Below, piece after piece: positions 7,053 through 11,359 of a stretch of 64,000 bases of DNA. Position 1 is the first letter of the stretch. Every line of letters begins with the position of its first letter. The stretch is from Spirochaetota bacterium (GTDB lineage: Bacteria > Spirochaetota > Spirochaetia > Treponematales > UBA12059), in NCBI GenBank assembly GCA_022703505.1, contig JAKLDN010000002.1, positions 558,001 through 622,000 of the forward strand, read 5' to 3'. Made by a program: the position numbers and the translations under genes. The notes beneath the pieces were generated by a model. It saw only the letters and a program-made list of their open reading frames with translations. It had not been told where the DNA came from and did no database searches.

Positions 7053-8254
7053 CGTGGAAACTCGACCGCGATCCAATCCGCAGGGTCCGCCATCCCGGCG
7101 TCGATGAGGCCCAGGGCCACGTCGTCCGTGGTCTCCCCGACTAGCCACCCCTTGCCCTTGTGCGGGAACCGGGCGCCGGGGCCCGGCAGGTCGAAGGCGG
7201 CCAGGGCATGGGAATGCTTGACCGAGAGCATGAGCAGGGCGTCCCGGTTGTCGTGGCGGGCCAGGATGGCCAGGAGGACGGCCCGGGAATCGCAGTCTCC
7301 CCGGCCCTCGAAGGCGGCCGTAAGGGGATTCACCACGTCGCTTCCCGAGGGGTCCCGCTCGTACCGGAAGCCCTGGGTCCAGGCCAGCAGGCGGGCGGTC
7401 CGGGACCGTTCGTCCGGCTCCCCCGAAAGTTCCCGCTGGAGCACCAGGGAAAGGAAATCCAGACGGTGGAAGGTCTCCCGGTAGACCATCCGGTAGAACC
7501 GGGCCCAGGCCGCGTGCGCCAGGTCGGGGGAGGACCGGGCGTACACGCCGAAGACCTGGAACTCCCGCTCCACCGTGTCCTGGGCCGCGGCCCCCTCCCG
7601 GGGATCGTAGGGGACCCGGAGGGTCCGATCCCCGAAGCGGAGGTCCGCGGGCTTCCGCGCCGCCGGATCCCAGGGCAGGTTGAACTGGCTCACCGGGCCC
7701 GGGTAGAGCCGGGCCTCCTCGTCGACGGAAAAACCGTCCAGGCAGGAGAGGATGAAGGGCAGGTAGGCCTCGTACCGCTCCTCGGGCACGTAGGCCAGGA
7801 GGGCGATGTCCTTCTCGGGCTTGCCCGCGGCGTTCCCCGCGGCCCCGTCCACGAATAGCCCCCAACCCCTGTGGGGCTTGCCGGACAGCGGGAAACTCAG
7901 GTCCGCCATAACGGCGCCTCGGCGCTGGTAGGTGAAGGCCTCGGAATCCGCCCGGGCGCCCAGTTTCTTCCCTATGTCCTCCTGCATCGCCCGGGCCCCG
8001 GAGTAGCGGGCGGGCTCGTACAGGAAGATCTGGAACAAGAGGACCCCGGAGGGATCGGTGAAGGAAAACCGGGAGACCCCGTCCCCGTCGTTCAGGGTGA
8101 AGCCCTCGGGGAGCTCGAGGAAGAAGCCGGAATCGGAGTAGAGCTCCTCCGCCGGGGCGCGCTCCGGGGCGGCCAGGAAGAGGGACGCGGCGCAGGCCAG
8201 GATGAGGAATCGACGGGACGGGATCCGGCGGGCGGGAAAGCGGTCACTTCTCAT
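7049..8254 (-). CDS. Secreted transglutaminase-like domain protein
   Basis: 401 residues from the ATG at 8254, chosen because it gives a clean export signal (basic N-terminus, then FLILACAASLFLAAP) and overlaps the upstream stop by 11 nt (translational coupling; GAGGGAG lies 5 nt upstream). The C-terminal third has the transglutaminase/papain-like triad pattern: Cys in GRGDCDSRAVLLAILA, His in SVKHSHALAAFD, then an acidic residue near WLVGETTDD. The N-terminal half has a PsbP/DUF-like look (FFLELPEGFTLNDGDGVSRF). It is the second gene of an operon with 8244-8687. Substrate unknown; a protease or cross-linking role in the periplasm is an inference from the family. Confidence 0.8.
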   Translation of the reverse strand: MRSDRFPARRIPSRRFLILACAASLFLAAPERAPAEELYSDSGFFLELPEGFTLNDGDGVSRFSFTDPSGVLLFQIFLYEPARYSGARAMQEDIGKKLGARADSEAFTYQRRGAVMADLSFPLSGKPHRGWGLFVDGAAGNAAGKPEKDIALLAYVPEERYEAYLPFILSCLDGFSVDEEARLYPGPVSQFNLPWDPAARKPADLRFGDRTLRVPYDPREGAAAQDTVEREFQVFGVYARSSPDLAHAAWARFYRMVYRETFHRLDFLSLVLQRELSGEPDERSRTARLLAWTQGFRYERDPSGSDVVNPLTAAFEGRGDCDSRAVLLAILARHDNRDALLMLSVKHSHALAAFDLPGPGARFPHKGKGWLVGETTDDVALGLIDAGMADPADWIAVEFPR

Positions 8255-8687
8255 GGGACTCCCTCGGGGGCTTGGTCTTGATTTCCGGGGAGGGCCCGCC
8301 CCGGGTGCGCCGTGTTCCGGCTCCGCCGCGGGGCCGTGCGGCCGGACCCCCGGGAGGCATCCTCCGCCCCGCCTCCTCGAGGACCCGGTTCCGGTACTCC
8401 TCGTAGGACGGTTCCCGGTCGAACCGGTCCAGGACGCTCCGCCCCCGGGCATCCTCCAGGGTCAGGATATACTCCCCCAGGATGTCGGATTCCAGGTTCA
8501 CCGCCAGCACCGGGGACCGGGCGGAAGGCTCGAACACGAAGGCGCGGAACCGGTATCGTTCCAGGTGCCTCTCCTTGGTGCGCGGGATCGCCACGAAGAC
8601 CGCCGCGTAGCCCGGCCGCTCCACCCGTTCGGCGGGGGGGCCGGTCAAGAGGTATCGCATCCAGGTAAGATCCCGCAGGGGTTCCAC
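8244..8687 (-). CDS. Hypothetical protein, GTG start
   Basis: 147 residues, family not recognised. An in-frame upstream ATG exists, but it lies inside the CTAG-bounded repeat at 8698-8844. The GTG at 8687 has a perfectly placed AGGAGG (6-nt spacing), whose AG comes from the repeat boundary CTAG, so it is taken as the start. The first ~95 residues look like a folded domain (YAAVFVAIPRTKERHLERYR, then VLAVNLESDILGEYILTLED); the last ~45 are Pro/Arg/Gly-rich and probably disordered. It overlaps the next gene by 11 nt, so the two products probably act together. Confidence 0.65.
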   Translation of the reverse strand: MEPLRDLTWMRYLLTGPPAERVERPGYAAVFVAIPRTKERHLERYRFRAFVFEPSARSPVLAVNLESDILGEYILTLEDARGRSVLDRFDREPSYEEYRNRVLEEAGRRMPPGGPAARPRGGAGTRRTRGGPSPEIKTKPPRESHEK

Positions 8688-8697
8688 CCGTTCCCTC

Positions 8698-8844
8698 CTA
8701 GGAGTTTGTCGGGCTTTCCCACGACAATCAAGGAAAAATCGCATACATGCGATTTTTCTACCTTGCATACTCCTGAGGAGCCCGATAATCGGGACTTATT
8801 ACGCCTATAGGCGGAAAAAGTCCACAAGTCCGACGGGCTCCTAG
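8698..8844. repeat. CTAG-bounded hairpin element, dimer copy A
   Basis: 139 bp between two CTAG tetranucleotides, the same length as copy B at 53414. The ends are inverted repeats (GAGTTTGTCGGGCTT and, reversed, GAGCCCGTCGGACTT). Two internal hairpins are present: AAAAATCGCAT with its complement, and GGACTTATTACGCC with GGCGGAAAAAGTCC (12 of 14 pairs). It lies between the promoter at 8855-8883 and the Shine-Dalgarno of the gene at 8687, so it should be transcribed as 5' leader. Confidence 0.85.
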
Positions 8845-8854
8845 CTCTCTACCA

Positions 8855-8883
8855 AGTATATCGGCAGGGAAGGCCGAGGGCAA
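8855..8883 (-). promoter_or_regulatory. Promoter of the 8687-7049 operon
   Basis: On the complement, TTGCCC (8878-8883), 17 nt, TATACT (8855-8860). Without the repeat at 8698-8844 it would lie 24 nt before the GTG start. Confidence 0.8.
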
Positions 8884-8899
8884 ATCGGGATCTCCGTCA

Positions 8900-8928
8900 T
8901 TGCAACGATCCGGCCCCGGCGCTATACT
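8900..8928 (+). promoter_or_regulatory. corA promoter
   Basis: TTGCAA (8900-8905), 17 nt, TATACT (8923-8928). Transcription should start near 8935, giving a 5' leader of about 235 nt before corA. Confidence 0.8.
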
Positions 8929-9033
8929 GGGCTTGGAATCAGGCAGGATACCGCCTTAAGGCGGTCCCCGGCCGGACCCGGCGCCCCGTGGGGCCGCCAT
9001 ACCGGCGCTTCGGCGCCAAGAAGGGGGAAGCGA

Positions 9034-9123
9034 ATGGATCCCGACGGTAGTTGTCCGTCACCTATCTCGTTCCAACGCTGGCCCCCGAGAGCCGGGTTAC
9101 CCGCCCTTCGACAGCCTTCCTGA
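9034..9123 (+). CDS. Candidate proline-rich leader peptide of corA
   Basis: Open frame of 29 codons starting MDPDGSCPSPISFQRW and containing seven prolines. A strong Shine-Dalgarno (AAGGGGGA) lies 5 nt before the ATG. It ends 20 nt before the hairpin that masks the corA ribosome site. The start resembles the magnesium-sensing leader peptide MgtL of enterobacteria (MEPDPTPLP...), where acidic and proline codons destabilise ribosomes at low magnesium; corA of Salmonella also has a leader ORF (corL). The ORF is seen directly; that it is translated and senses magnesium is inference. Confidence 0.5.
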   Translation: MDPDGSCPSPISFQRWPPRAGLPALRQPS

Positions 9124-9143
9124 ACGCCGTCGAACCGCGCGCG

Positions 9144-9165
9144 ACCCTCCCGGGGGCGGGAGGGT
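9144..9165 (+). promoter_or_regulatory. Hairpin sequestering the corA Shine-Dalgarno
   Basis: Perfect 8-bp stem: ACCCTCCC (9144-9151) with GGGAGGGT (9158-9165), 6-nt loop. The right arm is the only Shine-Dalgarno of corA (GGGAGGG, 7 nt before the ATG at 9172), so folding would block translation. Confidence 0.7.
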
Positions 9166-9171
9166 ACAATC

Positions 9172-10182
9172 ATGATCCGAATCTGGAAACAACAGGACGG
9201 AGTCCTGGTCCCCGCGGAGTCCGCGGGCCCCGGCACCTGGGTGGACGTCCGGTGGGCGTCCCGGGAAGACCTGACCGTCCTGGAGCAGGATTACAAGATC
9301 CTGTCCGAGCATCTCCAGGACATCGTGGACGCGGACGAGCAGTCCCGGCTGGAAAAAGAGGACGAGTACACCCTGCTGATCGTCCGTCTGCCCGTCCATG
9401 ACAGCCGCTACGAACCGACCTTCTTCACCGCCCCCGTGGGCATCGTCCTATTCCCGGACCGGGTGATCACCGTCTGCTGGGCGGATTCCGAGGTCCTGTC
9501 CGACATGGCGGACAACCGGGTGCGGGGGCTTTCCCTGGAAAACCGGAACGCCTTCGTCCTGCGGCTCCTGGGGCGGGCGGCCATCGTCTACCTCCGGCAC
9601 CTGAAGGTCCTGAACCGGAGGACGGGCTCCATCGAGCGGGAGCTCCAGAAATCGGTGCGCAACACCGAGCTGGTCCAGCTGTTGACCATCGAGAAGTCCC
9701 TGGTCTACTTCACCACCAGCCTCAAGTCCAACGAGCTGGTCCTGGAAAAGCTCCTCAAGAGCCGGCTCATCCGGTTCCAGGAGGAGGAGACGGAACTCCT
9801 GGAGGACGTGGAGATCGACAACCGGCAGGCCATCACCATGGCCAACATCCACAGCGACATCCTGTCCGGGATGATGGACGCCTTCGCCTCGGTCATCTCC
9901 AACAACCTCAACATTGTGATGAAGCGTCTGACCGTGATCTCCCTGGTGCTCATGATCCCGACCTTCATCGTGAGCGCCTTCGGGATGAACGTCCCCCTGC
10001 CCTGGCACGACAGCGGGAACGCCCTCTGGTACATCGGGGGGCTCTGCGCGGTCTGCGCCCTGGGAGGGGCCATAGCCCTGACCCGGGACCGGAGGCCGGT
10101 ACGCAGGTCCCGGGCGCCGGTGCCCGCCACCCTGGTGGCCCAGGCTTCCGGCCTGGGGCTCCCGCCCCGCGGGGCCGAGTAG
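9172..10182 (+). CDS. corA: CorA family magnesium/divalent cation channel
   Basis: 336 residues, typical for CorA, a homopentameric inner-membrane channel for magnesium (some members carry cobalt, nickel or zinc). The large cytoplasmic N-terminal domain (residues 1 to about 270) contains the expected long helices. Two C-terminal membrane segments follow, and the signature loop between them is GMN in AFGMNVPLPWHD. An Arg-rich tail follows the second membrane segment. It is preceded by a long regulatory leader with a masked ribosome site. It is followed after 65 nt by rluA, which has its own promoter. Confidence 0.95.
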   Translation: MIRIWKQQDGVLVPAESAGPGTWVDVRWASREDLTVLEQDYKILSEHLQDIVDADEQSRLEKEDEYTLLIVRLPVHDSRYEPTFFTAPVGIVLFPDRVITVCWADSEVLSDMADNRVRGLSLENRNAFVLRLLGRAAIVYLRHLKVLNRRTGSIERELQKSVRNTELVQLLTIEKSLVYFTTSLKSNELVLEKLLKSRLIRFQEEETELLEDVEIDNRQAITMANIHSDILSGMMDAFASVISNNLNIVMKRLTVISLVLMIPTFIVSAFGMNVPLPWHDSGNALWYIGGLCAVCALGGAIALTRDRRPVRRSRAPVPATLVAQASGLGLPPRGAE

Positions 10183-10211
10183 GGCGGGGTGTCCGGACCG
10201 CGTCGCCGGTC

Positions 10212-10240
10212 TTGCCATTCCGGAGCACCGGCACTATCCT
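10212..10240 (+). promoter_or_regulatory. Promoter of rluA (10248), predicted leaderless
   Basis: TTGCCA (10212-10217), 17 nt, TATCCT (10235-10240), then 7 nt to the ATG at 10248. No Shine-Dalgarno is present. Confidence 0.7.
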
Positions 10241-10247
10241 TCGCCGC

Positions 10248-10946
10248 ATGCTCGAGGTGCTGTACCGGAACGACGACCTCCTCGTCCTGGACAAGCCCGC
10301 CGGCCTGGCCGTCCAGCCCGGGGCGGGCATCAAGACCAGCCTGGTGGAGGCCGTGGAGGCGCAGTTCGGGTTCCGGCCCTTCCTGATCCACCGGCTGGAC
10401 CGGGACACCTCGGGCTGCATCGCCGTGGCCACGAGCTCCCGGGCGGCCTCCGAGTATTCCGCGATCCTTTCGGACAAGGCCCGCTGCGAGAAGGTCTACC
10501 GAGCCCTGGCCGCGGGGATTCCGGAAGGCCGGGCCGGGGTCATCCGGGACGAGATCCGGACTCCCTCGGGCCCCCGGCGGGCCGAGACCCGGTGGCGCCT
10601 CCTGGCCTCGGGCCGGGGATTCTCCCTGCTGGAACTGGAGCTGGGAACGGGCCGCATGCACCAGATCCGGATCCATCTGGCGGGCCTCGGGCATCCCATC
10701 CTGGGGGACGACCGGCACGGCGACTTTTCCCTCAACAAGCGTCTGGCCAAGGAATACGGCCTCAAACGCCTGCTTCTATACGCGGCCCGGCTGTCCCTGC
10801 GGACCGATCCCCCGATCCGGGTCGAGGCCCCGGCGCCTAGGCACTTCCGGTCCTTCGCCGAGGCCCTGGGGGCCGAGGAGATGGCGGCCGCCCTCGGGTC
10901 CGTCGACCGATCCCTCGATCCCGGCCCGGACGGAGGCGGCGCGTGA
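10248..10946 (+). CDS. RluA-family pseudouridine synthase
   Basis: 232-residue RNA modification enzyme converting uridine to pseudouridine in rRNA or tRNA. The catalytic-Asp motif is intact (HRLDRDTSG), preceded by the family start LDKPAGLAVQPG and followed by GRMHQIRIHLAGLGHPILGD. No S4 domain is present. The ATG at 10248 is preferred over one 36 nt upstream because the first family residues (LEVLYRNDDLLVLDKPAG) begin there and the promoter -10 lies 7 nt before it. The stop overlaps the GTG of the next gene by 4 nt (GTGA). Which uridine it modifies cannot be told. Confidence 0.92.
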   Translation: MLEVLYRNDDLLVLDKPAGLAVQPGAGIKTSLVEAVEAQFGFRPFLIHRLDRDTSGCIAVATSSRAASEYSAILSDKARCEKVYRALAAGIPEGRAGVIRDEIRTPSGPRRAETRWRLLASGRGFSLLELELGTGRMHQIRIHLAGLGHPILGDDRHGDFSLNKRLAKEYGLKRLLLYAARLSLRTDPPIRVEAPAPRHFRSFAEALGAEEMAAALGSVDRSLDPGPDGGGA

Positions 10947-11359
10947 CCGCGGCGGAGTCCCCGGACGCCCTCCCCCCCTGGACCTTCCGGCACGGTGCGA
11001 GCTGGCTGGCCGAAGGCGGCGTCGTCCTGCCCATCCCGGGCTTCCACGACGAATGGATACGGTCCCACCCGGACCTGGTGCCCGGGTGCTCCAACGTCTG
11101 CGACGTGGTGGTGCGGAAGCGGTGGGTGAGCGTCTCGGTCTTCTCCGAGGGCTACGTGGAGCTCCTGGTTCCGGGGCGGGGCGACGGGGAGAGCCTGGAC
11201 CGGTGCCGGGAGTTCCTGGCCCGGGCGGCCGGCGCCTGGACCCACGCACTTCTCATGACGATGGACGAGGAGGGCTACATACGCCTTGTCCCCTCGGATA
11301 CGGCCGGCCCGGAGGCCTTCCTGGAGAGGATCGGCACGGGGGCCGGATTCCGGCTCTGA
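10943..11359 (+). CDS. Hypothetical protein translationally coupled to rluA
   Basis: 138 residues, GTG start in a GTGA overlap with rluA. Family not recognised; no signal peptide or membrane segment, so it is probably cytosolic. It has several Trp and Cys residues (SNVCDVVVRKRWVSVSVFSE) and alternating hydrophobics that suggest a small mixed alpha/beta fold. The overlap suggests co-translation with the pseudouridine synthase, but a functional link is only inferred. Confidence 0.7.
   Translation: MTAAESPDALPPWTFRHGASWLAEGGVVLPIPGFHDEWIRSHPDLVPGCSNVCDVVVRKRWVSVSVFSEGYVELLVPGRGDGESLDRCREFLARAAGAWTHALLMTMDEEGYIRLVPSDTAGPEAFLERIGTGAGFRL

Follow-up and report, generated by a model that had tools for sequence, protein, structure and literature searches.

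A conserved acidic leader peptide upstream of corA and mgtE in spirochaetes: a probable translation-based magnesium sensor

Upstream of corA in a Spirochaetota bacterium lies a short open reading frame (ORF) that probably, with a likelihood of about two in three, serves as a translation-based magnesium sensor for corA, working like the mgtL and mgtQ leaders of enterobacteria. Comparison between genomes establishes this leader as conserved and selected in its reading frame, places it before two families of Mg2+ transporter genes, and establishes both a pairing between two segments of the RNA, S1 and S2, and a hairpin enclosing the Shine-Dalgarno (SD) sequence of corA. To our knowledge, no magnesium sensor has been established in spirochaetes.

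The corA locus and its leader

The window, i.e., the whole stretch of 64,000 nt that was analysed (GCA_022703505.1, JAKLDN010000002.1; coordinates count from its start), carries the following elements.

8900-8928, + strand: sigma-70-type promoter for leader and corA, TTGCAA (8900-8905), 17 nt, TATACT (8923-8928)
8981-8997, + strand: 5' hairpin GGCGCCCCGTGGGGC; several f1 and f4 relatives have GC-rich hairpins at the same place
9004-9017, + strand: hairpin GGCGC-UUCG-GCGCC directly 5' of the leader SD, with a compensatory change in G001
9023-9032, + strand: S1, the leader SD region GGGGGAAGCG, complementary to S2, with which it folds and covaries
9034-9123, + strand: leader ORF MDPDGSCPSPISFQRWPPRAGLPALRQPS, 29 codons, seven prolines, own SD AAGGGGG
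9034-9057, + strand: conserved N-terminus MDPDGSCP (acidic, Pro, Gly and Ser residues), the proposed ribosome-destabilising segment
9076-9087, + strand: S2, CGCTGGCCCCCG, within the ORF (Arg-Trp-Pro-Pro codons), pairs with S1
9144-9165, + strand: corA SD hairpin ACCCTCCC-GGGGGC-GGGAGGGT, 8 bp; anti-SD 9145-9151, loop 9152-9157, SD 9158-9164
9172-10182, + strand: corA, CorA-type Mg2+ channel, 336 aa, PF01544 profile

A preliminary description of this DNA had claimed the promoter, the 29-codon ORF with its own SD, MDPD start and seven prolines, and an 8-bp hairpin around the sole corA SD, and all three were found where it had placed them. The promoter has 9/12 matches (0.1 expected per shuffle), and its boxes are retained in the congeners G001 and G002 with an altered spacer. 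The only corA SD, GGGAGGG at 9158-9164, ends 7 nt before the ATG at 9172, and the hairpin that contains it is present in every computed fold. Both congeners lack the imperfect palindromes that lie at 8709-8842, in the interval from the divergent upstream gene to the corA promoter, and these may therefore represent an insertion.

The corA product matches PF01544 (E=1e-52) as well as solved CorA structures, and has the GMN motif (FGMN in the translation). It falls under the TIGR00383 equivalog cut-off, with 104 vs 201 bits, and another CorA of the same genome scores higher against PF01544. No MgtE match was found in this genome.

Conservation of the leader in congeners and across the order

In the two congeners, whose CorA proteins are 91% and 93% identical to that of the window, positions 9017-9165 are nearly unchanged and the ORF is free of indels, whereas the stretch from the divergent upstream gene to the promoter aligns poorly. 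Both the ORF and the terminal stem are thus kept in close relatives, where their loss had been named as the result that would speak against the proposal.

Across the order, the leader start M-[DPS]-x-D-[PGS]-[GS]-S was recognised in 107 of 180 corA upstream regions. Its frequency depends on the identity of the downstream CorA: 14/14 at 60% and above, 23/26 at 55-60%, 26/35 at 50-55%, 26/47 at 45-50%, 17/46 at 40-45% and 1/11 below 40%. About half of the corA genes at 45-50% identity thus come without a recognisable leader, which counts against the sensor reading. Within family f1, every intact member with the window's type of corA has the ORF, starting MPDPDSCSRQDIPPFLRWPP, MPDSDGHSSQSPIPLIRMPP or MDPDGS, and the starts in other families include MSDSDGGSSS, MPDDSSS, MDSDPGS, MDSGSSYPIR and MDEGSSVPLP. 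Inspection upstream of the second CorA lineage of the order's genomes gave no such leader.

The composition of the start was also examined with the ORF picked by SD strength alone: at least five of residues 2-7 were D, E, P, G, S or N in 79 of the 104 strong-SD ORFs, compared with 13 of the 885 remaining ORFs from these upstream regions. The preliminary description had drawn an analogy with MgtL and CorL from the acidic start and the seven prolines; the former is borne out across the order, but the prolines are not, because what is conserved are the initial 6-8 residues (D-x-D plus P, G or S). Its proposal of a translation-based sensor outside the groups where such sensors are described gains support, although not as the peculiarity of one spirochaete, as the leader family spans most of the order and probably occurs in Clostridia too.

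Selection on the leader peptide

In four leader groups, pN/pS over codons 2-8 was 0.30-0.64 in frame vs 0.86-1.44 in the two other frames, a comparison that is partly circular because the groups were named partly by their peptide prefix. For this reason, the calculation was repeated on 63 loci picked by SD alone, which gave 0.77 in frame (bootstrap 0.71-0.84) and 1.07 and 0.94 out of frame. Codons 12-18 of these SD-picked loci gave 0.91, indicating that the first residues carry most of the constraint. Furthermore, one Ser of the MDSDPGS leaders is encoded by AGC, TCC or TCT, i.e., the codon switches between TCN and AGY among relatives. These comparisons of coding sequences show the leader frame to be under purifying selection. 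Gly and Ser are conserved to the same degree as Asp, which the E. coli drop-off model does not need and which counts against the sensor reading.

Association with two families of magnesium transporters

When 244 genomes of the order were scanned with a DNA pattern for an SD followed by MDxDPG, 12 sites were found, all 12 directly upstream of corA. The corresponding pattern for MSDxD[DG]G gave 22 sites, 18 of them before corA, three before mgtE (genomes G034, G220 and G121) and one unexplained, which opens a 351-aa frame in G005 (L319); the reversed-pattern controls returned 0 and 1 matches. The MPD pattern used in family f1 had no SD component, and some of its matches are due to chance. Direct inspection upstream of mgtE in relatives revealed the leaders MNDSEGPGSQPPEP, MPDSDVDASQPPDP, MNDSDGPGSSQPPEP, MHDSDVDDSQPPEP, MPHSDVDSSQPPEP and others; downstream of several of them, a helix is predicted at the mgtE SD.

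Although not related as proteins, CorA and MgtE both transport Mg2+. Because the acidic start is conserved before corA and before the unrelated mgtE, sensing of low Mg2+ by ribosome fall-off is probable. The M-box was detected in 0 of 149 genomes of the order, but the same search did detect it in the control genomes of B. subtilis and L. lactis.

RNA pairings and covariation

Two pairings in the leader RNA are supported by comparison, and a third, competing one between S2 and the corA SD region is weak. S1 is complementary to S2 in the window (GGGGGAAGCG with CGCTGGCCCCC) and in f4/f5 (GGAAGCGCC with GGCGCTTCC, or GGAAATGCC with GGCATTTCC), and the pairing is stronger within a species than between species, with z -5.3 in f4/f5 and -2.7 in the window's group. 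A second pairing joins the corA SD to an anti-SD that precedes it (GGTTTCTCC with GGAGAAACC), and other species have changed on both sides, so that the covariation check proposed for the terminal stem, once run, came out in its favour. For this second pairing the permutation used unselected windows of the upstream region, since choosing the anti-SD by its fit to the SD biases the test; the own-species advantage was z -7.1 in f4/f5 and -4.8 in the window's group. The control pairing of S1 with the region after the ORF had no own-species advantage.

In an alignment of 23 leaders, 82% of the cells in the two helices are paired vs 45-56% when the helices are slid, 12 of the 20 pairs of the two-helix structure have double changes, and the covariation score is 0.280 vs 0.239 (sd 0.014) in shuffles. 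Counting against the sensor reading, the sister genus g5 has its hairpins arranged differently. The G001 version of the 9004-9017 hairpin reads GACGC-GCGA-GCGTC. Across relatives, a 5' hairpin ahead of the leader SD, like that at 8981-8997 in the window, is little to modestly above chance overall. Taken as a whole, the leader has an unremarkable folding energy (z -1.5 vs shuffles), so the weight rests on conservation and covariation.

The third pairing concerns the segment GCCCCC of S2 (9081-9086), which is complementary to the GGGGGC loop (9152-9157) of the corA SD hairpin. Complementarity between S2 and the loop is weakly above chance, with z -1.0 in the window's group, -2.0 in f4/f5 and -2.9 overall. 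Nested folding of the window leader kept the corA SD hairpin closed whether the leader was free, covered or occupied early, and thus the computed thermodynamics show no switch.

Proposed mechanism and alternative explanations

In E. coli, ribosomes are destabilised by early acidic residues that are adjacent or one apart, and mgtL and mgtQ use this destabilisation for Mg2+ transporters (PMC11282234, PMC8092293). In mgtL the destabilisation is greater at low Mg2+, and failed translation of the leader raises the transporter (PMC11552253, PMC8092293, PMC11282234). By analogy, we infer ribosome abortion on the spirochaete leader, its response to Mg2+ with the direction of that response, and an action of S2 on the SD hairpin. 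With sufficient Mg2+, the leader would be translated to its stop codon, S1 and S2 would pair again, and the corA SD would be kept in its hairpin, leaving corA off. At low Mg2+, the nascent MDPDG (MPDPDS, MSDSDGG or MDSDPGS in relatives) would destabilise ribosomes, which would pause or drop off in the first codons. Ribosomes that keep loading at S1 would then prevent its pairing with S2, and the free S2 could base-pair to the G-rich element where ribosomes bind before corA, opening the SD for translation of corA. Low Mg2+ would accordingly raise corA.

The output may differ between lineages. At the Treponema-type loci L103, L104, L162, L163, L166, L168, L169, L212, L213 and L227, the leader reads out of frame through the corA start codon. 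Here the same peptide start would be joined to an output other than the SD hairpin, with finished translation of the leader hindering initiation at corA directly.

Other explanations have been weighed against magnesium sensing. An unlikely one is that the leader is a genuine uORF with a regulatory role but senses a cue other than Mg2+, such as arrest at R-x-P-P (through EF-P or the supply of proline), a different divalent metal or stress on elongation in general. In its favour, the f1 and f4 leaders retain a second block (FLRWPPRE, LIRMPPSR, FIRMPRRG), and CorA proteins can carry Co2+ besides Mg2+. However, the R-x-P-P block is absent from the MSD, MDSDPG and MDSGSS leaders, whereas the acidic start is common to all; the Pro-Pro codons form the S2 pairing element; and the same start is seen in leaders of mgtE, which encodes a different Mg2+ transporter. 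On the second block itself, hydrophobic-R-x-P-P/R (9076-9087 in the window; f1 and f4 relatives), two observations can be recorded: it coincides with the S2 pairing segment, and its R-x-P-P resembles RAPP-type arrest motifs.

A structured RNA that controls the corA SD like a riboswitch, with Mg2+ or another ligand and an incidental ORF, is improbable. It would account for the conservation and covariation of helices at the two ribosome-binding sites, and the first codons of the MSD group can form a near-invariant GTCCG-ATT-CGGAC hairpin, but the constraint is frame-specific, Ser codons switch between TCN and AGY, and the same N-terminal residues occur amid RNA contexts that do not align. Moreover, no common aptamer-like core was seen and there was no match to any Rfam 15 family in window 7500-11000 at E up to 1. 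Even less probable is a leader that senses nothing and merely couples translation, by reinitiation at corA, or wards off Rho or RNases. The ten overlapping Treponema-type leaders have a common coupling arrangement, and Rho action is possible because the window leader is C-rich; yet coupling would not select D-x-D/P/G/S residues, and the leader usually ends 30-120 nt before corA.

Comparison with known systems

The closest match in logic to the proposed magnesium sensor is mgtQ, from the mgtC-mgtB intergenic region of Salmonella (PMC8092293), which likewise has Asp2 followed early on by another acidic residue, as well as a stem 1:2 and an SD-masking stem 3:4 opposed by an alternative stem 2:3, whose spirochaete counterpart is putative. 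It is only 8 codons long and lies inside an operon of Enterobacterales, whereas the spirochaete leaders mostly have 20-40 codons and lie at the 5' end of the transcript. The mgtL leader of mgtA (Escherichia and Salmonella, EPDP motif) is also a short ORF with its own SD and a Mg2+ transporter gene downstream, has acidic and proline residues right after the start, and takes part in alternative RNA pairings, as the spirochaete leaders may do. It differs in the phylum of its hosts and in serving a P-type ATPase rather than CorA or MgtE, the peptides share nothing alignable but D/E and P, and mgtA uses Rho termination, whereas in the spirochaete a hairpin seems to mask the SD.

Enterobacterial corL (PMC11552253) shares a leader ORF and a structured 5' region before corA, but has a UUG start in E. 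coli, one conserved proline and few acidic residues, and acts through Rho. A structured 5' region before corA is also the point of likeness with the "corA motif" (Stav et al. 2019, PMC6429828), reported in Gammaproteobacteria only. The M-box (ykoK, RF00380) likewise controls Mg2+ transporter genes, including mgtE, from a 5' leader, but is a ligand-binding RNA. The likeness to enterobacterial mgtL and corL is likely due to convergence, the peptides being too short to decide on descent.

Breadth and significance

A literature search that covered few subscription journals found no account of spirochaetal or clostridial corA or mgtE leaders, and leaders of this functional kind are known, as far as that literature goes, from Enterobacterales alone. 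By the same literature, the spirochaete leader family is new in host range and in peptide. By eye, clostridial corA loci have similar short ORFs such as MDEGPSLYF, MDSGPEHSCY, MEAGPDPRAD, MDSDPGGSRD and VDADPSSRHP; the loci with acidic leader ORFs containing Gly or Pro are L125, L135, L139, L143, L147, L150, L152 and L156. At the Bacteroidales corA loci L123, L132, L138 and L149, inspection by eye gave an ORF of the MDDY type without an SD about 96-99 nt upstream, the clearest being MDDYHASRCFNF, with MDDYYPKFIVF as a further example.

A wider reading, which we hold tentatively and at slightly less than even chances, is that bacteria of many kinds, and not enterobacteria alone, regulate by sensing Mg2+ through the abortion of ribosomes on a short acidic peptide. 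One family (M-D-x-D/G-P-G/S) would then act before corA and mgtE throughout Spirochaetota and before corA in Clostridia, and perhaps in Bacteroidales as well. Its outputs (an SD-masking hairpin or a leader running over the corA start) would be interchangeable, and its role would be that of M-boxes elsewhere. The leader family supplies a sequence signature for finding further examples, and its dozens of natural variants are material on which to learn which residues cause ribosome drop-off. If the sensor reading is true, the presence of one leader family before two unrelated families of Mg2+ transporters would make nascent-chain-dependent ribosome instability a general metal sensor.
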